From a virus, in IMG/VR virus record IMGVR_UViG_3300027759_000297, positions 1-30,922 of that record: DNA of 30,922 nucleotides; one strand, given 5' to 3'. The position numbers were made by a program, and so were the translations under genes. The notes below the pieces were generated by a model, which was not told the origin of the DNA, made no database searches, and worked only from the letters and a program-made list of their open reading frames with translations. Below, one piece after another: positions 2,491 through 30,922 of the stretch; position 1 is the stretch's first letter; every line of letters starts with the position of its first letter.

Positions 2491-2859
2491 ATGGCAGTTG
2501 AAGACAAAGATGTAGCGGATTTCGTAAGTACGCTATTGCACAGCGGTACAGTTGCCCACTTTATGCACCTTGGCACAGACAGCCTTGGGGTGCATTTGGC
2601 GACTGGCGACTACTACACCGCAATTATTGACTTGGTAGACCAGTTTGCCGAGGCTTTTATGGGGTGTTATGGGAAAAAGATAAAGAACTTTCCCGAGAAC
2701 TTTCACAATGCCAAAGACCCCATGAAATACTTTGAAAGCCTGTCAAAGTACGTGGAGACTAACCGAAAGGCCATGCCTGATGACACTCAATTGCAAAACA
2801 TCATTGATGAAATTGCCCAATTGATTGACTCAACCCTATTCCGCTTGACGCTGAAATGA
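2491..2859 (+). CDS. DUF5856-like small helical protein
   Basis: This 122-aa protein is predicted all-helical: VADFVSTLLHSGTVAHFMHL, then YYTAIIDLVDQFAEAFMGCY, then a middle helix and a C-terminal LQNIIDEIAQLIDSTLFRL. The pattern matches DUF5856, a phage family seen in marine and freshwater phages, with a spaced His and acidic-residue layout reminiscent of Dps/ferritin-like four-helix bundles. No function is established, and the ferritin resemblance is my inference. A Shine-Dalgarno AGGGG lies five bases before ATG, right after the terminator U-tract. The stop overlaps the next start as ATGA, tying it to the glycosyltransferase. Confidence 0.8.
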   Translation: MAVEDKDVADFVSTLLHSGTVAHFMHLGTDSLGVHLATGDYYTAIIDLVDQFAEAFMGCYGKKIKNFPENFHNAKDPMKYFESLSKYVETNRKAMPDDTQLQNIIDEIAQLIDSTLFRLTLK

Positions 2860-3536
2860 TTAGGATATTTGCAGGATATGACCCCCGAGAGGCCATTGGC
2901 TATCACGTTTTCTGTCAAAGCCTAATTGAGAGATCAACCGATGGGGTAGCGGTGACCCCCCTATTTGGCAAGCAAAGGGACGGGACTAACGCCTTTACCT
3001 ATCAAAGATTCCTGATTCCTTACTTCATGGGGTTTCAAGGACGGGCCATATTTTTGGATGGCGCTGATATGCTGATGCTAGGGGACATTGCCGAACTGGA
3101 CAAGCTGTATGACCCTACCAAAGCGGTGCAAGTGGTCAAACACGACTACCAGACCAAGCACCCAAGAAAATACATTGGCACACCGATGGAATCGGTAAAT
3201 CGGGATTATCCGCGCAAAAACTGGTCAAGTTTGATACTTTGGAACTGCGCCCACCCCCGAAACAAGGTGCTGACCCCTGAGTTTATTGAGGAAAACAGCG
3301 GGGCAGACTTACACCGATTTGGTTGGTTGCCTGATTCACTTATCGGTGAAATACCAAGAGAATGGAATGTGCTGGTTGGTGAGCAAGATCACTTGAGAAT
3401 CAAGATTGCCCACTACACGCTAGGAATCCCAGAATTTGAGTATTATGAAGATTGTGATTATTCTGAGGAATGGAAACGCACCAAAGGCAGAATGATTAAC
3501 GGCCTAATAAAGATGAAGGAAACACAAGATGCCTAG
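2856..3536 (+). CDS. Glycosyltransferase, GT8-like (GT-A fold)
   Basis: The 226-aa product starts IRIFAGYDPREAIGYHV, typical of phage-encoded GT8-like transferases. It has a metal-site-like segment, IFLDGADMLMLGDI, with D68 and D71, where family members have DxD. Other expected parts are the TYQRFLIPYF helix before it and the late GEQDHLRIKIAHYTLG segment, where a His often completes the nucleotide-sugar site. It is single-domain, soluble and lacks a signal peptide. The donor and acceptor cannot be read from the sequence. Its position before terminase, with a sugar cassette further downstream, suggests modification of phage DNA, virion protein or host surface glycans. The spacing of the DxD motif is a little unusual. 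Confidence 0.8.
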   Translation: MIRIFAGYDPREAIGYHVFCQSLIERSTDGVAVTPLFGKQRDGTNAFTYQRFLIPYFMGFQGRAIFLDGADMLMLGDIAELDKLYDPTKAVQVVKHDYQTKHPRKYIGTPMESVNRDYPRKNWSSLILWNCAHPRNKVLTPEFIEENSGADLHRFGWLPDSLIGEIPREWNVLVGEQDHLRIKIAHYTLGIPEFEYYEDCDYSEEWKRTKGRMINGLIKMKETQDA

Positions 3537-7864: not shown

Positions 7865-8943
7865 GTCTAGTTCTTGATGACCGGGTGCGGGAAACAACCA
7901 CAACCACGGGGACAGGAACGATTACATTAGCCGGGGCGGTGACGGGTTATCAAGGCTTTAGCGTCATTGGCGACAACAACACCACGTATTACACGATTGC
8001 TGGCACTTCCGAGTGGGAGGTGGGTCTAGGTACATATCTAAGCGGGACACTAAGCCGAGATACTGTGCTGGCCTCATCCACAGGGTCTAAAGTCATGTTT
8101 GCGGCTGGGTCAAAGGATGTGTTTGTAACCTATCCAGCACAAAAATCGGTTAATCAAGATGCCAACAATAGGGTTTTGATACCCTATACATCAGGCACGA
8201 CTAATGTTGGATCGTTAAATGTTGGTAACGCAACGGCACATACCGATACGGGTGTAATTGCAGGATTCACGGCAAGTGAGCCGCTGTATCTATATACCAG
8301 TTTGCAAAACACAAGCGCCAGCAACACAAGTTATGCAAGCTATGCAGTCAATGATGGCGGTCATACGGCTTACGGCGAATTGGGCATCAATAACGCTAAT
8401 TACAGCTATGCGGCGGCAGGATACCCCAATAACGGGTTTTCGTTGCCATTGGCTAGTTTTGTAGAGTCTTATGGTGGCCCATTGGTTTTAGGGTCATGGG
8501 ATAGCCAAAAGATCAGTTTTATTGTCAATGGCGCGGTAAACACAACCGATGCAATGACCATTAACACCAATGGATCGGTGGCATTTAACGGTCAAGCTGG
8601 CTCGGCAGGGCAGGTTTTGCAAAGCAATGCCACAAGCGCACCGACTTGGGTAACACCTAGTAGTGGAACTGTTACAAGTGTTGCGGCTACTGTCCCATCA
8701 TTCTTATCTGTATCTGGTTCACCAATTACAACAACTGGCACATTGGCGATTGCTCTTGCATCTACTCCCACTAATGGTCAGTTATTGATTGGCAATGGCA
8801 CAGGGTTTTCTTATGCCGCATTAACTGCTGGTAGCAACATCACAATTACAAATTCATCAGGTGGTATTACTATCGCCTCAAGTGGTGGCGGCTCATCACT
8901 TCCTATTACTAAAATGCAAGCACAATTATTTGGAGGCTTTTAA
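7861..8943 (+). CDS. Fibre-like or head-fibre structural protein
   Basis: The 360-aa product starts VLDDRVRETTTTTGTGTI then LAGAVTGYQGFSVIGD, an N-terminal module shared by many environmental phage structural proteins. A low-complexity Ser/Thr/Asn/Gly-rich beta region follows. The C-terminal third contains the fibre-like run GTVTSVAATVPSFLSVSG and TTTGTLAIAL, typical of repeating beta shafts. It lacks a visible chaperone domain. Its location between portal and scaffold, rather than at the tail-fibre end of the cluster, argues for a head fibre or decoration role, although a tail fibre cannot be excluded. It is coupled to the portal by ATGA and to the next gene by TAATG. Confidence 0.7.
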   Translation: MSLVLDDRVRETTTTTGTGTITLAGAVTGYQGFSVIGDNNTTYYTIAGTSEWEVGLGTYLSGTLSRDTVLASSTGSKVMFAAGSKDVFVTYPAQKSVNQDANNRVLIPYTSGTTNVGSLNVGNATAHTDTGVIAGFTASEPLYLYTSLQNTSASNTSYASYAVNDGGHTAYGELGINNANYSYAAAGYPNNGFSLPLASFVESYGGPLVLGSWDSQKISFIVNGAVNTTDAMTINTNGSVAFNGQAGSAGQVLQSNATSAPTWVTPSSGTVTSVAATVPSFLSVSGSPITTTGTLAIALASTPTNGQLLIGNGTGFSYAALTAGSNITITNSSGGITIASSGGGSSLPITKMQAQLFGGF

Positions 8944-9365
8944 TGGCACAGAATACATCACCAGTTTTTCCTTTAGTCCCAGTAGTAATTTGGGTAAACA
9001 CAGGCGCAGTTACTGCAAACACAACCACCGATTTGACGGCGGGGACTAATTACAATTCTAACTTTACAGCCAACGCAACCAATGGCTCTAGAGTTGACTT
9101 TATCCGTGTAAGGGCATTGGGTACAAACGTAGCAACAGTTATGCGTGTTTGGTTAAACAATGGATCAACAACAGCAACTGCCGCTAACAATACATTGTTT
9201 TTTGAAAGAACATTGGCGGCAACAACTGTTTCACAAACGGCAGAATTGCCCGATGTAATTCTTCCTATAAATGTATCTTTGCCAGTAGGGTATAAGATTT
9301 ATTACACATTTGGAACAGCCGTAGCGGCTGGTTATGGAATACAAGTAGTTGGTGGGGATTACTAA
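8943..9365 (+). CDS. Beta-rich structural protein, unknown
   Basis: The 140-residue product is rich in Thr, Asn, Ala and Val, with alternating patterns such as TANTTTDLTAGTNYNSNF and an aromatic/Val C-terminus ending VVGGDY. Composition suggests a jelly-roll or Ig-like fold, about right for a head decoration or fibre-binding protein. No catalytic or membrane motif is seen. TAATG overlaps on both sides place it in one translational unit with two fibre-like genes, so it may bind or anchor them. The family is not recognised. Confidence 0.65.
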   Translation: MAQNTSPVFPLVPVVIWVNTGAVTANTTTDLTAGTNYNSNFTANATNGSRVDFIRVRALGTNVATVMRVWLNNGSTTATAANNTLFFERTLAATTVSQTAELPDVILPINVSLPVGYKIYYTFGTAVAAGYGIQVVGGDY

Positions 9366-10426
9366 TGTTTACTGGTTTTCCATCTACGCAAACTCCCACA
9401 GTTCAATGGTGGGATTACAGCAAAACAAATGCTGGAACAATAAATATTGCATTGCCAAATGATTGTGCGCCTGTGCAATATTTTGCAACAGGTGGTTCAA
9501 CAACAACCATTCAAGTTACCTTGCCACCTAATCCTGCGCAAGGCAAAACAATAATCATAAAAAATGATAAGTATGGTGGTAGTACACAGTCAGTGCAAAT
9601 CAATGATGGAAGTGTGCCATATATTAATGCCGCAATTTTAGGAGCAGCTTCAGAAGTTACTTATTGTTATATTGTACAAAACACTTTGGCTGGAACAGGG
9701 CCGTCATTTTCTAATTGGATACGAATTGCTGGGGGTAGCACATATCTAAATCAATTTGGGACTTCCATTGGTGGACATACTAATTCAGCAACTGGGTTTG
9801 CCTCTACGATTATTGGTGGTTACAGTAATACATGCTCTGGATTTGGTGCAATAGTAATTGGGGGTGTATCAAACACAGCGTCTGCTACTTATGCGTGTGC
9901 TGGAGGTTCAATTTCTACGGCTAATTCTAATAATTCTTTTGTATTTGGAAGTGGTGCAACTGCCCGTAGTATTGTAGGAAATACTGTATTTGGGGCAAAC
10001 GATTCTCCTTATAGTGGTGGAGCAAAACAATTAGCCATGTTAACTGTTGGCGCACAAACAACAGATGCAACAGCAACAGTTTTAAGAAGCAATACAAGTG
10101 CCGCAAGTGCAACTAACCAAATTGCTTTAGCATCCAATTCTGCATATTACTTTAGGGGCGAATGTGTAGCAGGGGTCACCGCCGCAGGAGATGCAAAAGG
10201 TTGGTACATTGAGGGTGTAATCAAAAGGGCTACACTTGCTTCCACCACAACCCTTGTTGGAACTCCATCAGTTACATCTCTGTATGCTGATGCAGGGGCA
10301 ACTACATGGTCTCTTGCGGTTACAGCAGATACAACCAATGGCGCATTAGCAATAACAGCAACAGGTCAAGCGGCAACAACCATTCGATGGCTCTGTCAAA
10401 TTCGTACAACTGAAATGGGATTCTAA
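9365..10426 (+). CDS. Fibre-like protein with YadA/Hep-Hag-like head repeats
   Basis: The 353-aa product has a beta-rich N-terminal part, then a central section of short repeats: SIGGHTNSATGFASTIIGG, YSNTCSGFGAIVIGG, VSNTASATYACAGG, and NSFVFGSGATARS. This period of about 14-16 residues with GG/FG turns resembles the left-handed beta-roll of trimeric autotransporter (YadA-like) heads, also used in phage fibres, and suggests a trimer that binds a surface. The C-terminal domain (ECVAGVTAAGDAKGWYIEG and onward) is a separate beta domain without S74 motifs. Placement in the head module suggests a capsid-attached receptor or glycan-binding fibre, which is inference. Confidence 0.7.
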   Translation: MFTGFPSTQTPTVQWWDYSKTNAGTINIALPNDCAPVQYFATGGSTTTIQVTLPPNPAQGKTIIIKNDKYGGSTQSVQINDGSVPYINAAILGAASEVTYCYIVQNTLAGTGPSFSNWIRIAGGSTYLNQFGTSIGGHTNSATGFASTIIGGYSNTCSGFGAIVIGGVSNTASATYACAGGSISTANSNNSFVFGSGATARSIVGNTVFGANDSPYSGGAKQLAMLTVGAQTTDATATVLRSNTSAASATNQIALASNSAYYFRGECVAGVTAAGDAKGWYIEGVIKRATLASTTTLVGTPSVTSLYADAGATTWSLAVTADTTNGALAITATGQAATTIRWLCQIRTTEMGF

Positions 10427-12541: not shown

Positions 12542-13522
12542 ATGGCATACGCCAATAGTAATTACTCAGACGTTTTGGCAACCACCATTGAATCACGCTC
12601 CGGCATCGTTGCCGACAACGTGACCAAAAACAATGCGTTGCTGACCCGTCTGCGCGAGAAAGGCCGTTACAAGCCCTTCTCTGGTGGTTCGACAATCTTG
12701 CAAGAGTTGTCATTCCAAGCAAACAGCACAGCCATGTATTACTCGGGCGCTGAAACCCTGAACATTTCCCCAGCGGATGTGATCAGCGCGGCTCAGTTCC
12801 CGATCAAACAGGCAGCGGTTGCGGTCACGATCAATGGCCTTGAAATGTTGCAAAACAGCGGCGAAGAGCAAATCATTGATTTGTTTGATGCCCGTTTGGA
12901 CGTTGCAGAGGCATCCATTGAGAACTTGATCTCTACTGGTATCTACTCGGACGGCACAGCCAACAACGGCAAGCAGATCACTGGTCTGCAAGCTATGGTG
13001 GTTGCAAGCCCAAGCACGGGTGTGGTTGGCGGTATTGACCGGGCAACGTGGTCATTCTGGCAAAACCAAACCTTTGACTTTTCCAGCGACCTTGGCGCAA
13101 GCGCATCTAGTTCCAACATCCAGACTGGTTTTAACCGCCTGTATGCCAAAACTAGTCGCGGCTCTGACGTTGTTGACTTGATCCTGTTGGACAATAACTT
13201 GTGGGGATTCTTTATGTCTTCCCTGCAAAACATCCAGCGTTTCCCCGGTTCATCGAAGATGGCAGAACTTGGTTTTGTTGCATCAAAGTACATGAACGCT
13301 GATGTGGTCTTGGACGGCGGTATTGGCGGCAACATTCCGACCTCTACTGGTTATTTCCTTAACACGAAATACATCTTCTTCCGACCCCATCAAAACCGCA
13401 ATTTCGTCCCAATCGGCGATGAGCGCATGAGTACCAACCAAGATGCCATCGTGCGCTTGATTGGATGGGCTGGCAATATGACTGCTTCGGGACTCCAGTT
13501 CCAAGGCATCATGACTGAATAA
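12542..13522 (+). CDS. Major capsid protein
   Basis: The 326-aa product has the features of a HK97-fold major capsid protein of the compact type: N-terminal arm MAYANSNYSDVLATTIESRS, then KPFSGGSTILQELSF and NISPADVISAAQFPIKQAAV (extended E-loop region), a long helix through EEQIIDLFDARLDVAEASIEN, and a C-terminal A-domain region ending FQGIMTE. It directly follows the putative scaffold, has a consensus ribosome binding site and uses a more GC-rich, uniform codon choice than its neighbours. A P-domain-like Gly/Ser-rich stretch near DLGASASSSN is visible. The exact capsid family cannot be decided without comparison. Confidence 0.92.
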   Translation: MAYANSNYSDVLATTIESRSGIVADNVTKNNALLTRLREKGRYKPFSGGSTILQELSFQANSTAMYYSGAETLNISPADVISAAQFPIKQAAVAVTINGLEMLQNSGEEQIIDLFDARLDVAEASIENLISTGIYSDGTANNGKQITGLQAMVVASPSTGVVGGIDRATWSFWQNQTFDFSSDLGASASSSNIQTGFNRLYAKTSRGSDVVDLILLDNNLWGFFMSSLQNIQRFPGSSKMAELGFVASKYMNADVVLDGGIGGNIPTSTGYFLNTKYIFFRPHQNRNFVPIGDERMSTNQDAIVRLIGWAGNMTASGLQFQGIMTE

Positions 13523-13533
13523 GGAGCATAAAA

Positions 13534-14067
13534 ATGCCTGATTACGTCACAGACGGAAAAATTGGTATTGATTTGACGGCTACCTATGCGTCAACCAGTG
13601 CTGGTTCTACGACCCTTTTCCCGGTTACTCCGGGAACGCGGGTCACCACCTCCAACAACGGCACTTACATCTTTGTTCGCGCCGAATCCACCATCAGCGC
13701 TTACGATGCGGTGATCATGTCTACGTATGGTGATAGTGCGTCACAAACGCCTGTCCTGCGCGCAGTACCTGTCACTACGACTAATGCCGCTGCTTTGGGT
13801 TGGAACATGGTTGGCTTTGCCCAAACCGCGATTGCCTCTAGTTACTATGGCTGGGTGGCATTGAATGGTGTGGTTAAGGTTAACTTGTTGGTTGCTTGCC
13901 AACCTAAAGTGCCTTTGTACACCACCTCTACCGCTGGATCATTGGACGACACTACTGTGTCGGCTGGTTTCATCCAAGGTATTGTGGCTAACACCTCGGC
14001 AACGAGCGCATCCGCGCCTTTCTGTGTGGTTAATAACCCTGGCCTGATGATGGTTGGTGCTGGTTAA
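13534..14067 (+). CDS. Capsid decoration or DUF2190-like protein
   Basis: The 177-aa product is a beta-rich, Thr/Ser/Val-rich protein: DGKIGIDLTATYASTSAGST, then TRVTTSNNGTYIFVRAEST, and the segment AYDAVIMSTYGDSASQTP, which recalls small capsid-stabilising proteins and DUF2190-like proteins that follow major capsid genes. It has no cysteine network, signal peptide or membrane segment. AAGGAG seven bases before ATG predicts strong translation, as required for a protein present in hundreds of copies. The terminator directly behind it closes the head transcription unit. Confidence 0.75.
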   Translation: MPDYVTDGKIGIDLTATYASTSAGSTTLFPVTPGTRVTTSNNGTYIFVRAESTISAYDAVIMSTYGDSASQTPVLRAVPVTTTNAAALGWNMVGFAQTAIASSYYGWVALNGVVKVNLLVACQPKVPLYTTSTAGSLDDTTVSAGFIQGIVANTSATSASAPFCVVNNPGLMMVGAG

Positions 14068-14073
14068 ACCTAG

Positions 14074-14099
14074 CCCCCTCTCACAAGGAGGGGGTTTTT
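14074..14099 (+). terminator. Rho-independent terminator after the capsid genes
   Basis: CCCCCTC (14074-14080) pairs with GAGGGGG (14088-14094) around loop TCACAAG, followed by five T residues (14095-14099). It lies seven bases after the stop of the decoration protein and five bases before the next ATG, so read-through is required to express the downstream cassette and tail genes unless an unseen promoter exists. Confidence 0.88.
14087..14094 (+). promoter_or_regulatory. Shine-Dalgarno embedded in the terminator 3' arm
   Basis: GGAGGGGG ends nine bases before ATG 14104 and is the only purine-rich candidate ribosome binding site for that gene. It is also the 3' arm of the terminator, so folding of the hairpin would hide it. 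This predicts low or conditional translation of the downstream enzyme. Confidence 0.6.
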
Positions 14100-14103
14100 C
14101 TTA

Positions 14104-15738
14104 ATGAGTTTTTTACCTCTCAAGATAACTGGTAAATGTGTCGCAGATGATGAGACATTATTTACAAACATGGAATCCGCAATAGCGCGGGGACTGCCAC
14201 AAGTCAAGCAAAGCGAACCCCCCAAGGATGGGACGATTGTTTTGGTGGCTAGTGCGCCAAGTGTCAAGGGACAGATAGAACTCATTAAAAAGATGAAAGC
14301 CCAAGGGTTGCCCATAGTAACAATCAAAGGGGCGCACGATTGGTTAATTGACAATGGGGTGATGCCAGATTACGCATTGGCAATTGACCCCCAAGAACAC
14401 CGCATTTCTTTCTACAAGCCCCAAGACGGGGTGCACTACATGATTGCCTCACAATGCCATCCGGCAATGTTTGACAACTTGGAAGGCCGCAAAGTCACAA
14501 TTTGGCATCCTTACGTGATGAAGGGCCAAGACCGCCCCGCTAAGTCTTTGCTGATTGGCGGGGGAACTACCTCGGGCCTCAGGGCTATATCGTTGTTTTA
14601 TGTATTGGGCTGGCGGCACTTTGCTTTGTTTGGGTTTGATTCCTGTAATGATGGCGAGACTCTTAGGGTCAACGGGGATGGGCTTAAAGAGGGCGACAAG
14701 CTACTCGAGGTCAGGATTGAGCCTGATGGTGAGCCGTTTTATTGCAATGCGTCTATGGCCTTGCAAGCCGAGCATTTCCAGACCTATTACGACTATTTGC
14801 CCGATGCTACTTACGAGGCGTTTGGGCATGGCCTAATCCAAGCAATCATCAAAAAACGCATGGAAAATGGCGCGGCATTGCAGCAGATTATCGACCAAGA
14901 TTACAAGCCAAATGACCGGGTTTCGTTCATCCATTGGGGGGATAAGACCTCGGCAAGCTGGCGGTATCGAGCAAGAATTCCAAGTGCGGGATGGGCAAAC
15001 ATAAATGATTTGCTGGCAGATACTTTGATCTTTGCGAAACCCCAAGCCAATGAATTGATGGACATGGCACGGGCCAAAGCCCGAGGTGCATGGATTGTGG
15101 TTGATTTCTGTGATGATCATTTTGATTGGACACATTACGCCGAGGCATTGCGCCTTGCCGATGTGGTGACTTGTCCAACCGATGAGATGGCCCGTAGGAT
15201 CAAAGCATTAGGCCGAGATGCGGTGGTGATCCCAGACCCATTTGAATACCCAGAGGCCGTGCCCCATTGCAAGGGAACTAACCTTTTATGGTATGGACAC
15301 GCTGTTAACAAGCACAGCTTACAAAGAATATTGCCGGACTTGGCAGATTACCCTTTGCGGGTGGTCTCCAACTTTGGCGGCACAATTCCTTGGTCTTATG
15401 AGACCATGTTGAAAGAATTTGCCCGAGCCGATATAGTAGTGATCCCGGCAACCGAAACCTACAAAAGCGCAAATAGGGCGATTGAGGCGACCAGACAAGG
15501 TTGTTTTGTGGTGGCAGAACCTCATCCAGCACTTAAAGGTTTTCGCGGGATTTATATCGGCAACATCAAAGAAGGCATTGAATGGACACGACAGCAGAAC
15601 GTCAGGAGCGATATTTTGGTGGCACAACAATACGTGAAGGAAAAATATACGCCGCAAATACTGATCGAAATGTGGAAGACAGCTACGAAACGGCCTATAA
15701 CCTCGGATGTGGAACTAAGAAATGGGACGGCTGGATAA
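14104..15738 (+). CDS. Two-domain protein: MptE-like (DUF115) plus glycosyltransferase
   Basis: This 544-aa protein joins two enzyme-like domains. Residues about 45-230 resemble MptE-like/DUF115 proteins, known from archaeal 6-hydroxymethylpterin diphosphokinase and from Maf-type glycosylation proteins: IVLVASAPSVKGQIELI, then TIKGAHDWLIDNGVMPDYAL, then LIGGGTTSGLRA and FALFGFDSC. Residues about 270-520 look like a GT-B type glycosyltransferase C-terminal half: DVVTCPTDEMARRIKALG, VVIPDPFEYP, LLWYGHAVNKHSLQRIL and ADIVVIPATETYKSANRAIE. The Maf analogy suggests transfer of an activated sugar to a protein or glycan, but substrates are unknown. It has no signal peptide. The 3' end overlaps the next gene by 157 bases in another frame. 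Confidence 0.82.
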   Translation: MSFLPLKITGKCVADDETLFTNMESAIARGLPQVKQSEPPKDGTIVLVASAPSVKGQIELIKKMKAQGLPIVTIKGAHDWLIDNGVMPDYALAIDPQEHRISFYKPQDGVHYMIASQCHPAMFDNLEGRKVTIWHPYVMKGQDRPAKSLLIGGGTTSGLRAISLFYVLGWRHFALFGFDSCNDGETLRVNGDGLKEGDKLLEVRIEPDGEPFYCNASMALQAEHFQTYYDYLPDATYEAFGHGLIQAIIKKRMENGAALQQIIDQDYKPNDRVSFIHWGDKTSASWRYRARIPSAGWANINDLLADTLIFAKPQANELMDMARAKARGAWIVVDFCDDHFDWTHYAEALRLADVVTCPTDEMARRIKALGRDAVVIPDPFEYPEAVPHCKGTNLLWYGHAVNKHSLQRILPDLADYPLRVVSNFGGTIPWSYETMLKEFARADIVVIPATETYKSANRAIEATRQGCFVVAEPHPALKGFRGIYIGNIKEGIEWTRQQNVRSDILVAQQYVKEKYTPQILIEMWKTATKRPITSDVELRNGTAG

Positions 15739-16184
15739 ACGTAGATTTGCATTCAGACGTTTCTGATCTGAAATGCGATTTGCGAAAGCTGGAGATTGCA
15801 AGCGATAGCGCCGATGCTGTGGCGGCAATCCATGTCCTAGAGCATTTCTATGAATGGGAAGTGCGGGATTTGCTGATTGAGTGGATGCGGGTTCTTAAAC
15901 CCGGTGGCAAAATGATCCTAGAATTGCCATGTATGGATAAAGTGTTTGCTTACATCCATAACTGTGTGGTCAACAAAGAACCGATACAGCCCTTTATGTC
16001 GCTGTTTGCTTTGTATGGTGATCCCAAATACAAAAATGAGTTTATGTGCCACAGGTGGGGATGGTTTCAGACCCCCTTGCGTTTGATGCTGGAATCGGCG
16101 GGGTTACAGCGCATAGAATTTTGCGAGCCGCGCTACCATTTTCCATTTAGAGATATGAGAATCGAATGCTACAAGGGGTCTTGA
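15582..16184 (+). CDS. SAM-dependent methyltransferase, class I
   Basis: The 200-aa product has the class I methyltransferase core: motif I NLGCG at residues 40-44 with WDGWINVDL and acidic Asp55, then HVLEHFYEWE and LKPGGKMILELPC. It resembles methyltransferases of sugar-biosynthesis clusters, which act on nucleotide sugars or glycans. ATG 15582 has AAGAAGG seven bases upstream and lies 157 bases before the preceding stop; GTG 15672 would shorten the overlap but removes the region before motif I. Both frames look coding in the overlap. The C-terminal region (CHRWGWFQTPLRLMLESAG) completes the fold. It overlaps the next gene by 19 bases. Confidence 0.88.
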   Translation: MDTTAERQERYFGGTTIREGKIYAANTDRNVEDSYETAYNLGCGTKKWDGWINVDLHSDVSDLKCDLRKLEIASDSADAVAAIHVLEHFYEWEVRDLLIEWMRVLKPGGKMILELPCMDKVFAYIHNCVVNKEPIQPFMSLFALYGDPKYKNEFMCHRWGWFQTPLRLMLESAGLQRIEFCEPRYHFPFRDMRIECYKGS

Positions 16185-16900
16185 GCAACGATCAGCGCCA
16201 CGCGCAAATGGCCCTAGCAAAAGGCCAAATGCTAAAAAAGCGAGGCAAATTTAACGACAAGTGGGCATCCATTGTCTGCTACGGGCCAAGCCTTGCAGAC
16301 ACTTGGAAGATGATAAAGCGCCCAATTGTGACTGTCTCAGGGGCGCATGATTATCTGATGGACAGGGGCATAGTGCCCGACTTTCACGTGGATTGCGACC
16401 CCAGAGCGCACAAAGCCAGAATGCTTAAAAAGCCCCAGAAGGGCACGATTTACCTTATGGCATCTGTGTGCCACCCAGACTTTTGGGAGGTCTTAAAGGG
16501 CCATAAGGTGCGTCTATGGCACTTGATAAACGGGGATGATTTGGAAACTGTGGCATGGGTTGCACAACACCACCCCGAAGGCATGAAATGCTTGATTGGC
16601 GGGGGGTCTAGCGTGGGCATGAGGTCAATGAACGTGATGGCGGCGCTGGGTTACAGGCGTTTCCAGATTCATGGGATGGATTGCAGCTTTACCACTCAAA
16701 GACACGCTGGGGAACATTTGGGCAAGGAACAAGATAAAATATTTGCTAGGGCTGGGGACAGAGTTTTTCAGACCACAAAGCAAATGTTACAAGCGGCGAT
16801 GGAGATGGAGCAATTCATCAAAACTCAGGATGCAGAGGTTGCATTTTTTGGTGATGGTCTGATGCAAGAGACCGCAATTCAACTTAAAGGATTAACATGA
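16166..16900 (+). CDS. Stand-alone MptE-like (DUF115) protein
   Basis: The 244-aa product is a paralogue of the N-terminal domain of the protein at 14104-15738. Shared segments are ASIVCYGPSLADTWKMI (compare IVLVASAPS), TVSGAHDYLMDRGIVPDFHV (compare GAHDWLIDNGVMPDY), LIGGGSSVGMRS (compare LIGGGTTSGLRA) and FQIHGMDCSF (compare FALFGFDSC). Both end in an AEVAFFGDGLMQ / ATYEAFGHGLIQ-type segment. In Maf/DUF115 proteins this fold belongs to sugar or pterin phosphoryl-transfer chemistry. Without a partner domain it may act with the fusion protein, or with the methyltransferase lying between them. ATG 16166 overlaps the methyltransferase by 19 bases, and its stop overlaps the next start as ATGA. 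Confidence 0.85.
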   Translation: MLQGVLSNDQRHAQMALAKGQMLKKRGKFNDKWASIVCYGPSLADTWKMIKRPIVTVSGAHDYLMDRGIVPDFHVDCDPRAHKARMLKKPQKGTIYLMASVCHPDFWEVLKGHKVRLWHLINGDDLETVAWVAQHHPEGMKCLIGGGSSVGMRSMNVMAALGYRRFQIHGMDCSFTTQRHAGEHLGKEQDKIFARAGDRVFQTTKQMLQAAMEMEQFIKTQDAEVAFFGDGLMQETAIQLKGLT

Positions 16901-17484
16901 AGAACGAAAGCGCTGGCTGGACAAATGAGAATTTTGCCGATGACAACCGGGGAAAGATGCACATTTTCTTTCATGCGGTACAGGTGCAAAACAACCACAA
17001 AACTGCATTAGAAAAGCGCCCAATCTTTGAAGAGCGCGTTTTTATTAAGAAACTTGTGCCAGGTGACTCGACTTTGGTGGTTGACCGCCCCATGCGTATG
17101 CAAGACATGGACGATTTCCCTGTGGAATGGGCGCGGTACGAGCAAAAGAAAGAGCAAAAAGTGTCGGGTACGCCGATTGATGCTTGGGCCGCTATTTCTG
17201 ACACGCAAAAAGCCGAATTCAAGGCTTTGCACATTTTTACCATTGACCAGTTTGCCCAGCTTGCGGACTCGGCTGGTAACAAAATCATGGGTTTTAACGA
17301 ATTAAGGGCTAAAGCACGGGCATTTATTGACGCTGCCCAAGATTCTCAGTTGATGGACAGAATTCGCGCCGAGACCGATGAAAAATTACAGGCCCAAGAG
17401 GTTGAAATGGCGAAACTCCGTGCGATGATTGACGAATTGTCAGCCAAGAAAGCTGGCAGACCCAAAAAAGAAATGGTGGAGTAA
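16897..17484 (+). CDS. Coiled-coil structural-cluster protein with basic tail
   Basis: The 195-aa product has an N-terminal beta-rich part (RGKMHIFFHAVQVQ, RVFIKKLVPGDSTLVVDRPM), then a helical region, and a C-terminal coiled coil from about residue 150 (RIRAETDEKLQAQEVEMAKL, then RAMIDELSAKK). It ends in KAGRPKKEMVE, whose GRPKK core resembles an AT-hook-like DNA-binding tail. It is placed between the sugar cassette and the connector gene with coupling on both sides (ATGA before, zero-gap stop/start after). The family is not recognised. A structural or DNA-contacting accessory role is possible. Confidence 0.72.
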   Translation: MKNESAGWTNENFADDNRGKMHIFFHAVQVQNNHKTALEKRPIFEERVFIKKLVPGDSTLVVDRPMRMQDMDDFPVEWARYEQKKEQKVSGTPIDAWAAISDTQKAEFKALHIFTIDQFAQLADSAGNKIMGFNELRAKARAFIDAAQDSQLMDRIRAETDEKLQAQEVEMAKLRAMIDELSAKKAGRPKKEMVE

Positions 17485-18402
17485 ATGTCCTACACGTTGC
17501 TGGAGTTGGTTGATCAAGTCTCGGGCGAACTCGGGTTAGTTCAACCGACCTCAGTAATCGGGTCAGCGACTAATCAAACCCAGCAATTCTTGGCTTTGGC
17601 CCAGCGCCTTGGCAAGGACTTGGTAAGGGATTTTGAGTGGCAGCGCTTGGTGCAAGCCTACATCTGGCAAACCCAAGCCGCCATCACTACCACAGGCAAT
17701 ATCACCGCTGCCTCTAGCGTCATTACCGCAATTCCCACAACCGCCGCATTACAAGTTGGTAATGTTGTTACGGGAACGGGCCAAGCGCCATTTGCTGAGA
17801 TTTTGACCATTGACAGCAACACGCAAGTGACGCTGAATATGCCCGTGACCACCAGCACGGCCTCGGTTAGCCTTACATTTGCCAAACAGGACTATCCTTT
17901 ACCCGCTGGGTATGACCGCATGATTTCAGACACAAACTGGGATCGGACAGACCATTGGCGCAATCTGGGGACTAAATCCAGCCAGGATTGGCAATTCTTG
18001 CAAGGCGGCATTATCAGTATTGGGCCACGTGAAAGATACCGAATTTATAACCAGAAATTTCGCATATTCCAAGCGTTAACCACAGTCTATAACTTTTCTT
18101 TTGAGTATGTTTCAAACTATTGGGTTTGTGCAACTGGGTCTAGTTTTGGCACAAAAGCGGAATTCACAGCCGACACAGACACTTGCATTTTCCCCGATGA
18201 TCTAATGATGGCAGGATTGAAGTTCTATTTCTTGAAGGCCAAAAAGCTAGATTTTGGAGTGGAACTGGGTGAATTTACCCGTGCGCTAAGTTACTCAAAA
18301 GCGCAGGATGTGCCTGTGTCTAGCATGAGCCTTGCCCCGATTGGCATGAACCAATTGGTAGGCCCGTGGTCTGTGCAAGATGGCAACTGGCCCACAGTCT
18401 AA
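17485..18402 (+). CDS. Head-tail connector/adaptor protein with beta-rich insert, putative
   Basis: The 305-aa product starts MSYTLLELVDQVSGELGL and has FLALAQRLGKDLVRDFEWQR, a helical region like that of phage head-completion/adaptor proteins (P22 gp4-like or tail-tubular-A-like). A beta-rich Thr/Val insert (AAITTTGNITAASSVITAIP and GNVVTGTGQAPFAEIL) lies in the middle, then YPLPAGYDRMISDTNWDRTD continues the conserved part, as in adaptors described from environmental phages. It attaches below the portal and seals the packaged DNA. Placement just before the beta-propeller tail protein fits. It starts directly at the previous stop. Assignment is by pattern and position. Confidence 0.65.
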   Translation: MSYTLLELVDQVSGELGLVQPTSVIGSATNQTQQFLALAQRLGKDLVRDFEWQRLVQAYIWQTQAAITTTGNITAASSVITAIPTTAALQVGNVVTGTGQAPFAEILTIDSNTQVTLNMPVTTSTASVSLTFAKQDYPLPAGYDRMISDTNWDRTDHWRNLGTKSSQDWQFLQGGIISIGPRERYRIYNQKFRIFQALTTVYNFSFEYVSNYWVCATGSSFGTKAEFTADTDTCIFPDDLMMAGLKFYFLKAKKLDFGVELGEFTRALSYSKAQDVPVSSMSLAPIGMNQLVGPWSVQDGNWPTV

Positions 18403-19958
18403 TGCTGAATCAATTTAGCAGATACGGGAAGATGCGTACTCAAACGAGTACGACCATTAGCATTCCCGCGCCTATAGGGGGCTGGAACGCCCGAGATTCT
18501 TTGGGTGCAATGGCGGTTGAGGATGCGGTGACCCTGACTAATTGGTGGCCTGGTACAAACTCGGTCATTCTTAGGAATGGTTATACAAAGTGGGCCACGG
18601 GCATCACAGGGCAAGTTGAATCTATATTGTCCTATTCCGGCGGCACATCAAATAAGCTGTTTGCCGCCGCCACTACCAAGGTTTACGACATAACAACAAC
18701 GGGCGCGGTTGGTGCGCCTGACTTGACCAGTTTGACCAATGCGCGGTGGCAGTACGTGAATATGCGAACCACGGCGGGGTCATACCTGATGATGGTTAAC
18801 GGCGCTGACAAACTAAGATTTTATGATGGGTCTGCTTGGCACAAAGACGGGGATGGCGCTGGGTGGGACATAACCGGGGTCAATACCTCTAATTGCGTCA
18901 ACATTAACCTATTTAAAAACCGCGTTTGGTTGGTAGAAACTGGGTCAATGAAGGCTTGGTATCTTCCAATTAACTCAATTGCTGGGGCGGCTACATCGCT
19001 TGACATGAGCAGTCTGGTGATGATGGGCGGCTACATCATGGCGGGGATGAACTGGACGCTAGACGCTGGTTATGGCATGGATGACTATCTGGCCTTCATT
19101 ACAAACAATGGTGAGGTTTTGGTGTGGCGATTGACTGACCCCACCACCCCGTCAGGCATCAGTTTGATTGGGGTCTACAACATTGGATCACCTATAAATC
19201 GACGATGCTGGACTAAGTTTGGCGGGGATTTATTGATCATTACGCAAGATGGCGTAGTGCCCATGTCAGGCGCTTTGCAGTCATCCAGGCTTGACCCAAG
19301 GGTTAGCATCACCAATAAAATTCAGTACGCCATGAGCGCGGCTATATCGACTTATGGGGCTAATTTCGGGTGGCATTTGCTGTATTACCCAAAAGAAAAC
19401 CAATTGATTCTTAACGTGCCGATTGCCGAGGGTAGCCAGCAACAACAATATGTGATGAACAACATCACTAAATCTTGGTGTAATTTTACGGGCTGGAACG
19501 CTAACTGTTGGGAACTCTACGAGGATAATCCTTACTTTGGCGGTGATGGGTTTGTAGGTTTGGCGTGGGATGGTCAAGTTGACGATACTGACAACATTCA
19601 GAGTTTTGCAATTCAGAGTTTTCAGACCTACGGCGTACCTTCCCAAAAACAATGCCAGATGATCAGGTTTCACCTATTCACCAATGGGTCACCAGCACTT
19701 TACGGCAACGTGAACGTGGATTACAACTTGGCAGATTTGAGCACCCAACTGGGCACATCACCGACTGAGTACGGGTTATGGGATGTAGGACTGTGGGATC
19801 AAGCAAATTGGGGTGCTGGGTTGATGCCTAGCGCGGAGTGGCAAGGTGTTACCGAAATCGGCTACACATTTGCGCCAATTATCAAGACAGCGACAAACGG
19901 GATTCAAGTTCAATGGGTAGCATCTGACTTGGTTTTCCAAGGCGGCGGCACTCTTTAA
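18402..19958 (+). CDS. Tail hub/DNA-stabilisation protein (P22 gp10-like), putative
   Basis: The product (about 518 aa from ATG 18402) has PIGGWNARDSLGAMAVEDAV near its start, then TLTNWWPGTNSVILRNGY, a combination typical of phage packaged-DNA stabilisation / tail-hub proteins. It then has many beta strands with repeated W/Y-G turns (RWQYVNMRTTAGSYLMMVNG, LRFYDGSAWHKDGDG, GVYNIGSPINRRCWTKFGGD), consistent with a beta-propeller. P22 gp10 closes the connector after packaging. ATG 18402 overlaps the connector stop (TAATG); a second ATG at 18432 after GGGAAG is equally plausible and would remove ten residues. No membrane segment is visible. Confidence 0.72.
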   Translation: MLNQFSRYGKMRTQTSTTISIPAPIGGWNARDSLGAMAVEDAVTLTNWWPGTNSVILRNGYTKWATGITGQVESILSYSGGTSNKLFAAATTKVYDITTTGAVGAPDLTSLTNARWQYVNMRTTAGSYLMMVNGADKLRFYDGSAWHKDGDGAGWDITGVNTSNCVNINLFKNRVWLVETGSMKAWYLPINSIAGAATSLDMSSLVMMGGYIMAGMNWTLDAGYGMDDYLAFITNNGEVLVWRLTDPTTPSGISLIGVYNIGSPINRRCWTKFGGDLLIITQDGVVPMSGALQSSRLDPRVSITNKIQYAMSAAISTYGANFGWHLLYYPKENQLILNVPIAEGSQQQQYVMNNITKSWCNFTGWNANCWELYEDNPYFGGDGFVGLAWDGQVDDTDNIQSFAIQSFQTYGVPSQKQCQMIRFHLFTNGSPALYGNVNVDYNLADLSTQLGTSPTEYGLWDVGLWDQANWGAGLMPSAEWQGVTEIGYTFAPIIKTATNGIQVQWVASDLVFQGGGTL

Positions 19959-29492: not shown

Positions 29493-29741
29493 TCAAAAGG
29501 ACATATCGTCATCATTATCTGCTGGCAAACCCTGCATCTTAGGTTCGTAGGGGCGCGGGTCATTGAGGTATGCCCAGCCATCCCACCCGTTTTCTTTAAG
29601 TGGAATTACATCCAATTTAAGCATTTCGCCATTGCGGGTTTCAATAATTGACCCGATGCGCTGGTAACGGTTTTTTTGTTGACCTTCTTTGTTGGTGTAC
29701 TGACCGACAATTGCGGTGATTTCTTTTTTAATTTTGCTCAT
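29493..29741 (-). CDS. SSB-like single-stranded DNA-binding protein with acidic Phe tail
   Basis: The 82-aa product is a compact beta-rich protein: KKEITAIVGQYTNKEGQQKN then RYQRIGSIIETRNGEMLKLD and VIPLKENGWDGWAYL. It fits an OB-like fold of phage SSB-type proteins found next to recombination genes. The tail ends DNDDDMSF, closely matching the SSB C-terminal peptide (DDDIPF), which docks partner enzymes in bacteria. Typical SSBs are 140-180 residues; this one is much shorter and lacks a long linker. Its place between the exonuclease and the winged-helix gene supports a role with the annealing protein on ssDNA. ATG 29741 overlaps the YqaJ stop (ATGA). Confidence 0.7.
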   Translation of the reverse strand: MSKIKKEITAIVGQYTNKEGQQKNRYQRIGSIIETRNGEMLKLDVIPLKENGWDGWAYLNDPRPYEPKMQGLPADNDDDMSF

Positions 29742-30364
29742 GGTTGGCTTTCTATGTATTGGTTTAATTGCTGAACTTGAGAATCGACCTCGGCTAAGAA
29801 TTTGACAATCTCGGCCTCCATCTCGGTGATAAATGCGTTATCCCGTGGGATGCGGGTTACAAATAGCTGTGCTTTAGGTGGCATTCTGGGATCAAAAACA
29901 CAGTAATCGTTGAACTTGCGCCCAGTACAGGCCATTTGAAATTGCATTTGTGCAAAATACTTGGCGGGTACTTTTTGAGTTAGCAGGGTCTCTAACATTC
30001 CCTTGCTTTCGGGACATTTGATTTCTACCATGCCATCATCCCCAACAAAGCCATCAGGGGACGCACCAGCCATATCAATCGTGGGATGGGGTATAAACCC
30101 CACTTCCTCAACCATTACGCCTTGTGCGGCCTCATAAGCGGCCCGTGCAAATGGTTCTTGTTCAACCCCCCATTGCATAGCCTGAGAGGTAAACCCCTCG
30201 GCCTTGGTCTGGGTGATGCGTTCAAGGACTAATTGGGTCATGTAGCTATCCCGGCTTGCCGAGTAGCCTGTTTTGGTTTTAGCCATAACGTCATTAACCC
30301 GGCTGGCGGTTACCTTGCCTAGACGGGCGATAAACCATTCCTCGGTGCGTTGTTCGTCACTCAT
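29738..30364 (-). CDS. YqaJ-family (lambda Exo-like) recombination exonuclease
   Basis: The 208-aa product is a PD-(D/E)XK nuclease of the YqaJ/lambda exonuclease family. It has the RTEEWFIARLGKVTASRVND start, the conserved WGVEQEPFARAAYE with Glu70, then AGASPDGFVGDDGMVEIKCP with Asp104, Glu114 and Lys116 as active-site residues, and AQMQFQMACTGRKFNDYCVF with the conserved Gln region. These enzymes resect dsDNA ends 5' to 3' to leave 3' tails for an annealing protein. Length fits the family (200-230 aa). It overlaps the ERF gene upstream by ATGA, so the two partners of the system are made together. AAAGGAA precedes its ATG. Confidence 0.92.
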   Translation of the reverse strand: MSDEQRTEEWFIARLGKVTASRVNDVMAKTKTGYSASRDSYMTQLVLERITQTKAEGFTSQAMQWGVEQEPFARAAYEAAQGVMVEEVGFIPHPTIDMAGASPDGFVGDDGMVEIKCPESKGMLETLLTQKVPAKYFAQMQFQMACTGRKFNDYCVFDPRMPPKAQLFVTRIPRDNAFITEMEAEIVKFLAEVDSQVQQLNQYIESQP

Positions 30365-30922
30365 GCTTTTTCCTTTGCTTTTGCAATGCGGTCTGCCTTG
30401 GCCCTAATTACTTTGGCAATCCAAGTCTGATCACCTTGGCAAGCCTCATAAGCGGCTTTGTAGGCGGTTTGCAGTTCTTCTTTATTGGCGCTGGCATCGA
30501 TTGCGGCGATGTGGTCTGCCATCATTCCAGCGTCAATCTTGGGTGTGGGGCGACTAGCGGCTACACCATCATCATCGTCAGATGGTGCAAGGCCGCTGGC
30601 GGTGAGCAACGAATAGCGCCGAGCATAAGAAAGTGCCGAGCCATACCCCATTGCATCGTGCTTGCTGGCAGGGACATGAAGCATTCCGCACTCCATCGCT
30701 TCCCCAGATTCATGCACAAATATTGTTTCAACCATCACCCCGTCTTTGCATTCATAGGTGCGTTGCATCAAGCCTATGCCATTGGCGTTTAAAGCGCCTA
30801 CAACAGCATCAATGCAAGAACTGAGGTCTGCGTACTTAGATTTGAAATGAGGGTTTACAGACGTTTTTAATGCCTTGCCAAACTGCATCTGTGCTTTGAC
30901 AAAGGCGGCGGCTATTTTTGGA
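30361..30922 (-). CDS. ERF-superfamily single-strand annealing protein, 5' end outside window
   Basis: The frame is open to the right edge of the window, so the true N-terminus is beyond it. The visible 187 residues begin in PKIAAAFVKAQMQFGKALK, then NPHFKSKYADLSSCIDAV and GYGSALSYARRYSLLTASGL, the core motifs of ERF-type annealers, followed by an acidic DDDDG linker and a helical C-terminal part. ERF proteins anneal complementary ssDNA and work with a 5'-3' exonuclease, here the adjoining YqaJ-like gene. An internal ATG at 30888 would start the protein inside the conserved domain, which is unlikely because the upstream codons match the family. Its stop overlaps the YqaJ start. Confidence 0.9.
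   Translation of the reverse strand, partial: PKIAAAFVKAQMQFGKALKTSVNPHFKSKYADLSSCIDAVVGALNANGIGLMQRTYECKDGVMVETIFVHESGEAMECGMLHVPASKHDAMGYGSALSYARRYSLLTASGLAPSDDDDGVAASRPTPKIDAGMMADHIAAIDASANKEELQTAYKAAYEACQGDQTWIAKVIRAKADRIAKAKEKA

Follow-up and report, generated by a model that had tools for sequence, protein, structure and literature searches.

The window analyzed here, which is the whole of the linear IMG/VR virus record IMGVR_UViG_3300027759_000297 (30,922 bases), encodes a portal protein and a capsid protein that are 24 to 38% and 27 to 57% identical, respectively, to those of matching phage records, including Myxococcus phage Mx8, Stenotrophomonas phage BUCT555, and Bradyrhizobium phage ppBjS10J-1. 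Because of this portal and capsid identity to Mx8-type records, we assign the virus, judging from its sequence, to the Mx8-like podoviruses; it is known from metagenomes. It resembles these phages in the order and homology of the terminase, portal, capsid, and p50 to p52 genes. Unlike Mx8, BUCT555, and ppBjS10J-1, in which the corresponding slot is empty or occupied by other genes, it carries a cassette of three genes, designated here A, B, and C, and a further gene, D, lies ahead of the terminase genes. The features are as follows.

2856 to 3536, + strand: gene D, GT8-like glycosyltransferase upstream of the terminase genes (226 amino acids; phrog_28018, motif)
12542 to 13522, + strand: major head protein, candidate acceptor (phrog_9953, 4.5e-105)
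13534 to 14067, + strand: decoration-type virion structural protein (phrog_29386, 1.6e-5)
14072 to 14096, + strand: terminator-like hairpin in the gap between the decoration-type gene and A (scan and fold)
14104 to 15738, + strand: gene A, DUF115/MptE-like and GT-B-type fusion (544 amino acids; Pfam, Foldseek, 21-row alignment)
15582 to 16184, + strand: gene B, class I SAM-dependent methyltransferase (200 amino acids; Methyltransf_11, motifs, overlap statistics)
16166 to 16900, + strand: gene C, stand-alone DUF115 protein (244 amino acids; Pfam, AF2, Foldseek, hhalign)
16897 to 17484, + strand: p50-like gene (phrog_20268, 6.6e-12)

The preliminary description had placed a trio of this kind at 14104 to 16900 and a GT8-like gene ahead of the terminase, and both the coordinates and the domain calls were confirmed. 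The cassette is flanked on the left by the genes for the major head and decoration-type proteins and on the right by the p50-like gene and a gene for an SU10-type adaptor. The p50-like gene is homologous (tblastn) to p50 of Mx8, BUCT555, ppBjS10J-1, and ctMlz233, and it is here, 3' of the cassette, that the Mx8-type gene order resumes. PHROGs labels the p52 product (18366 to 19958) an amidase; we treat it as an Mx8 p52-type protein and draw no inference on lysis from the label. The gap between the decoration-type gene and A is 36 nt, and the genes that follow overlap, A with B by 157 nt in another frame, B with C by 19 nt, and C with the p50-like gene by 4 nt, the last of which suggests that the cassette is translated with the late operon. 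No membrane segment was apparent in A, B, C, or D. In the window, the likely ribosome-binding site of A is located in the 3' arm of the hairpin at 14072 to 14096 (z = -2.4). Each of the 29 distinct intergenic sequences in the clade, folded singly, gave a hairpin of -15 to -21 kcal/mol at the same place, with stems that differ in sequence between relatives. A hairpin before A could keep enzyme levels below those of the capsid and decoration proteins.

Proteins A and C both harbor the MptE-like domain PF01973, at 64.7 bits in A (residues 22 to 182; E = 1.2e-17) and 66.5 bits in C, against a cutoff of 34.6 bits, and C is paralogous to the N-terminal half of A (hhalign probability, 99.7%). AF2 gave a good model for C (pLDDT 81, pTM 0.83). 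The nearest solved structure to this model in Foldseek is the flagellin glycosyltransferase Maf 5mu5 (1.9e-7, TMq 0.65), followed by M. jannaschii HPPK/MptE 8sd5 (5e-6) and human ST6GALNAC2 (5.8e-4); Campylobacter CstII was also matched, and the predicted fold of the DUF115 domain of C is sialyltransferase-like (GT29/GT42). Maf 5mu5 is likewise the top PDB fold (1.8e-6, Foldseek) for the AF2 model of A, a model that is only moderately confident (pLDDT 69.9, pTM 0.54). When a combined DUF115 profile was compared with PDB sequences, Maf 5mu5 was again the best match at 2.1e-6, whereas HPPK 8sd5 reached only 0.11. Sequence matches of the C profile to carboxylase chains were discarded as chance.

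In A, the DUF115/MptE-like region (approximately residues 20 to 250) is followed by a GT-B-type half (approximately residues 270 to 530). This half matches no Pfam family above the cutoff (best, 15.7 bits versus 28.5) and, used alone as the query, gives a weak match to phrog_7162 (4.2e-5). By fold, the predicted structure clearly points to a GT4-like GT-B enzyme: after Maf, the Foldseek matches of the moderate-confidence model are to the GT4-type proteins PimA, GtfC, BshA, and SdgB (E values of 2.5e-5 to 2e-4), and two of these, GtfC and SdgB, glycosylate proteins (PDB entries for an accessory secretion system and an SD peptide). The predicted folds, together with the PF01973 matches, support a DUF115-glycosyltransferase fusion and a second DUF115 protein, as had been proposed.

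Protein B matches Methyltransf_11 at 38.6 bits (cutoff, 21.2), and its motifs NLGCG and HVLEH are invariant in 15 relatives; profile and motif I both identify it as a class I SAM methyltransferase. The 157-nt overlap with A is usually of equal length in relatives, and third-position variation in the B frame is 0.24 within the overlap versus 0.39 to 0.41 in the unique parts, as expected if both frames are coding. Protein D scores 20.4 bits for Glyco_transf_8, which is below the cutoff of 24.3, and matches phrog_28018 at 2.4e-36. It contains a D-x-x-D motif at residues 68 to 71, a D-x-D or D-x-x-D motif is present in all of the homologues listed, and the homologue from podovirus ctDrO704 reaches 36.6 bits for the GT8-like profile (cutoff, 24.3).

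Gene A is encoded on at least 114 viral contigs and gene C on at least 103. A search for the trio in other genomes found A, B, and C adjacent in 86 of 86 clade relatives, this being the number of loci with enough sequence after A, and D was present in all 27 long relatives. The median dN/dS is 0.10 for both A and B and 0.053 for C, which indicates strong purifying selection; the major head protein and the adaptor each have a value of 0.045. Given the unbroken adjacency together with the low dN/dS, the arrangement of A to C is not due to chance, and A to D belong to the core genes of the clade rather than to a passing cargo.

The cassette is lacking in the four named Mx8-like phages Mx8, BUCT555, ppBjS10J-1, and ctMlz233, in which the decoration-type gene is followed by p50, and A, B, and C were matched in none of 80 further relatives collected by capsid protein. 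The slot in these 80 is empty or holds virion-type proteins or other genes; since across other Mx8-like phages it holds assorted virion-type or lysis genes, the slot alone is no proof of a virion target. Among 50,697 phage records there was no close match to A or C. Against known phages, C gave nothing below an E value of 5, and B, the fusion protein of contig L116 (see below), and the DUF115 protein of a cellular genome (L342, see below) gave no match. For A, the only match was in the glycosyltransferase half (8e-5, 31.5% identity over 23% of the query), to a protein within a Justusliebigvirus/phi92-type glycosyltransferase cluster near replication genes. Profile queries for distant DUF115 proteins in viral contigs gave, among the best 80 matches of each, only members of the same clade. 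The preliminary description knew of no described function for such a set in a podovirus, and this accords with the lack of a close match in the 50,697 phage records; we also found no paper describing such a phage system under the terms DUF115 or MptE-like.

Related gene sets occur in three other phages. A more distant Mx8-like phage contig, L116, binned with a Sulfuricaulis metagenome-assembled genome (MAG), carries in the cassette slot a 597-amino-acid fusion that ends in a C-type DUF115 domain (48% identity), which we count as an independent case. Residues 1 to 340 of the fusion gave no hit to any family or solved structure, and viral relatives were found neither for the fusion nor for this part of it; a GT9-like motif leads us to guess at a glycosyltransferase role. 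Before the terminase, L116 encodes a D homologue (44%), NAD-dependent epimerases, a UDPG/GDP-mannose dehydrogenase, a transaldolase, a PfkB kinase, a cytidylyltransferase-like protein, a ThDP enzyme, and an FkbM methyltransferase, and, in our own reading of the sequence, what appears to be an SIS-type isomerase. These genes resemble a sugar-nucleotide route, possibly one for a heptose, and this lineage may thus supply its own donor. Podovirus ctDrO704, which has a different capsid family, harbors a D homologue in the stretch from its capsid to its adaptor genes, together with a methyltransferase and a TPR protein, and those of its genes that were tested gave no DUF115 match. In Pelagibacter phage Mosig, the D homologue lies amid methyltransferases, another glycosyltransferase, and a sulfotransferase-like gene. 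The clusters of ctDrO704 and Mosig resemble the window in having a D homologue (41 to 44%) beside methyltransferases and glycan-type genes; that of Mosig differs in adjoining nucleotide-metabolism genes, outside the capsid block.

Among 398 cellular genomes from the phylum of the Sulfuricaulis MAG, close DUF115 relatives were found in two other genomes, L341 and L342, and both neighborhoods are glycan contexts. In L341, the relative of C (32% identity) lies in a lipopolysaccharide (LPS)-type cluster with GT4, GT9, a carbamoyltransferase, and a Wzy_C O-antigen ligase-type protein. In L342, the relative (29%) begins a run of DUF115, TPR-GT41, and methyltransferase-TPR-GT41 genes, which adjoins a gene for a repeat protein with 35% Ser+Thr, and the methyltransferase part resembles B (4e-6 in a single comparison). 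The nearest cellular relatives of C thus include neighbors of O-GlcNAc transferases (GT41).

Maf proteins consist of three domains, an N-terminal Rossmann-like domain, a central DUF115 domain, and a C-terminal helical domain (PMC11339370). A and C share with the Maf flagellin glycosyltransferases (Maf_flag10/PF01973; 5mu5) the DUF115 domain and have them as the best structure match. They differ in that DUF115 stands alone in C and is fused to a GT-B domain in A, neither protein having the three-domain layout, and whereas Maf transfers nonulosonic acid from its CMP form to flagellin, the genes of the window lie in a phage late operon without flagellin. The archaeal 6-hydroxymethylpterin diphosphokinase MptE (8sd5) shares the Pfam family and fold, but it is a weaker match than Maf and the window offers no pterin context. 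Fold and context thus support a Maf-type nature of the DUF115 domains in A and C. Of the two activities for which the preliminary description cited DUF115 proteins, Maf-type glycosylation is the one supported, with Maf 5mu5 best by both fold and sequence and with glycan contexts in addition; pterin phosphoryl transfer, for which only the Pfam family name speaks, is not supported.

We consider it somewhat better than even (probability of about 0.55) that A to D form a phage glycosylation module whose product would most likely be a short glycan attached to a conserved protein of the virion. The four proteins would be cytosolic enzymes produced late, along with head and connector proteins. C and the N-terminal half of A would act as Maf-type transferase domains, the second half of A as a GT4-like GT-B transferase, and D as a GT8-like transferase; sugars from host nucleotide sugars would be added in sequence by A, C, and D, and B would methylate a sugar or the acceptor. 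The scheme builds on observed families, predicted folds, conservation, operon position, and the glycan contexts of relatives; the catalysis, the order of steps, the donor sugars, the acceptor, and the benefit in it are all inferred. The acceptor would be a virion protein kept by the whole clade, the first candidates being the decoration-type protein (13534 to 14067) and the major head protein. The former contains 23.7% Ser+Thr and is kept in 64 of 64 relatives, and the latter contains 17.2% Ser+Thr. The median Ser+Thr content of decoration-type proteins in the clade is 22.6% versus 17.7% in relatives that lack the cassette, a slight rise in a comparison in which not all proteins are strict orthologues. 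By position and composition, the decoration-type protein is the best candidate acceptor. The Ser/Thr-rich fiber-like proteins g8943 and g9365 (8943 to 10426), which had been put forward as possible targets, are present in only 1 of 64 relatives, all of which keep A; lacking in the other 63, they cannot be the general target. Of the broader proposal, modification of virion proteins or host glycans, the first part is supported as plausible, with a glycosyltransferase/methyltransferase module in the late structural block.

Several other roles were weighed against a virion target. The enzymes could modify a host surface glycan (LPS, capsule, or surface protein), for example, against superinfection or re-adsorption of progeny. 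In favor of this role, one of the cellular proteins closest to C is encoded in an LPS-type cluster that includes GT9 and Wzy_C, and soluble transferases such as A to D, with no apparent membrane segment, can act on cytosolic glycan precursors. The late operon position speaks against it, as does the presence of the cassette in every relative, unlike typical conversion genes. No PF00589 integrase or PF00239 resolvase was detected in 27 records (the window and 26 relatives, most of which are possibly fragments), and this, together with the late position and universal presence, weighs against lysogenic conversion, so that we regard a host glycan target as rather unlikely, if still worth serious attention. 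Glycosylation of a host protein, for instance pilin or flagellin, in order to block other phages or ready the cell for lysis is improbable. Maf proteins do modify flagellin (PMC11339370), but neither A nor C has the N- and C-terminal domains of Maf, the window contains no flagellin-like gene, and gene order implies expression with the late structural genes.

To our knowledge, DUF115 is not a DNA-modification family, and it seems very improbable that the transferases add sugar to a modified base in DNA, in the manner of T-even or phi92-like phages. The weak similarity of the glycosyltransferase half of A to phi92-type enzymes encoded beside replication genes is set against the position of the cassette in the structural block and the failure to detect the thymidylate-synthase/hydroxymethylase family PF00303 in any of 27 relatives, with a control that was positive in 9 genomes; TET/JBP (PF12851) was also found in 0 of 27, but here the control was silent. 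Least probable of all is a role for the DUF115 proteins as MptE-like pyrophosphokinases, with a pterin or some other small molecule as the substrate. The Pfam family name and the fold similarity of C to M. jannaschii HPPK 8sd5 (5e-6) would fit such a role, but Maf is better by fold and by sequence (2.1e-6 versus 0.11), and DUF115 is fused or linked to glycosyltransferases in the clade and linked to them in the cellular relatives. The neighbors scanned in the window, L341, and L342 are glycan or virion genes, with none for pterin or folate among them.

Glycosylation of particle proteins has been demonstrated in few phages. A virion glycosylation module is consistent with the location of the putative glycosyltransferase genes within the late structural block. 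In chlorovirus PBCV-1, the terminal part of the capsid glycan is the work of two glycosyltransferase activities together with methyltransferases (PMC9614988), and by analogy a glycan of the window virus would most likely be built and methylated as on that capsid. PBCV-1 is a eukaryotic virus with an N-glycan; its capsid glycan enzymes A064R/A061L (PMC9614988) are likened to the window proteins by description, and in the window the acceptors are candidates. In the passages of PMC12363180 and PMC12619734 that cite Freeman 2023, glycosyltransferases of phages Che8, Corndog, and Myrna glycosylate capsid and tail tube proteins; these phages have mycobacterial hosts, the passages name no DUF115 protein, and the likeness is again one of description. 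Virus-encoded virion glycosylation is thus already established in PBCV-1 and some mycobacteriophages. What differs from the known systems is the Maf-type DUF115 chemistry, the fusion of DUF115 to a GT-B domain, and the constant position within a late operon of the Mx8-like type.

Because a fixed set of sugar-attaching and methylating enzymes lies amid the shell genes, this virus group probably puts a sugar coat on part of its own particle. In its more specific form, a clade-wide Maf/DUF115 system that places a methylated glycan on the capsid or decoration protein, the proposal is a tentative one, with the odds slightly against it. If true, it would mean that Maf-type chemistry is used by viruses, through a four-enzyme set conserved in more than 100 uncultured contigs and including a strongly constrained protein with a domain known otherwise from the glycosylation of flagellin. 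It would also provide a compact system to reconstitute, and both the acceptor on the capsid surface and the role of the sugar would become testable.

Features of the window outside gene A (the DUF115/MptE-like and GT-B-type fusion gene at 14104-15738), together with two loci from other genomes, were as follows.

212-1162: DNA methyltransferase, left end of the window
8943-10426: fibre-like genes rich in Ser/Thr, forming a block that separates the portal from the scaffold region
14072-14096: terminator-like hairpin, 3' of the decoration-type gene, also found in the equivalent gap in relatives
29738-30921, minus strand: RecE-type exonuclease and Erf-like annealing protein, right end of the window
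L339:186-10058 (distant Mx8-like phage, contig JANLIC010000074.1): sugar-nucleotide genes in a row and a GT8-like gene, ahead of terminase
L342:5-12487 (bacterial MAG): Ser/Thr-rich repeat protein, DUF115 protein and two TPR-GT41 proteins

The hairpin between the decoration-type gene and gene A is constant in shape, with differing stem sequences, across all 29 of 29 distinct relatives, and it overlaps the likely ribosome-binding site of A. In BUCT555, lysis genes occupy the slot that follows the decoration-type gene and precedes the p50-like one. Among further Mx8-like phages found by their capsid protein (L167-L246), the same slot holds virion-type proteins that vary between phages, including beta-helix-like and adhesin-like ones (assigned by reading).

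The fibre-like block was found in only 1 of 64 relatives, and its place in the genome is hypervariable. The family of the gene at 18366-19958 is labeled in PHROGs as an amidase (lysis); judged by position and homology, its product is a Mx8 p52-type protein, and the PHROGs label may be wrong.

The phage of contig JANLIC010000074.1 also has a capsid gene that appears split (L116:5940-8431), inside which lie an ORF resembling GIY-YIG proteins and an HNH-like ORF. This raises the possibility that the interruptions are intron or homing endonuclease insertions.

At the bacterial locus L342, which encodes a cellular relative of the second DUF115 protein of the cassette, one of the two TPR-GT41 proteins contains a methyltransferase part. 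This locus is likely to be one for protein O-glycosylation.
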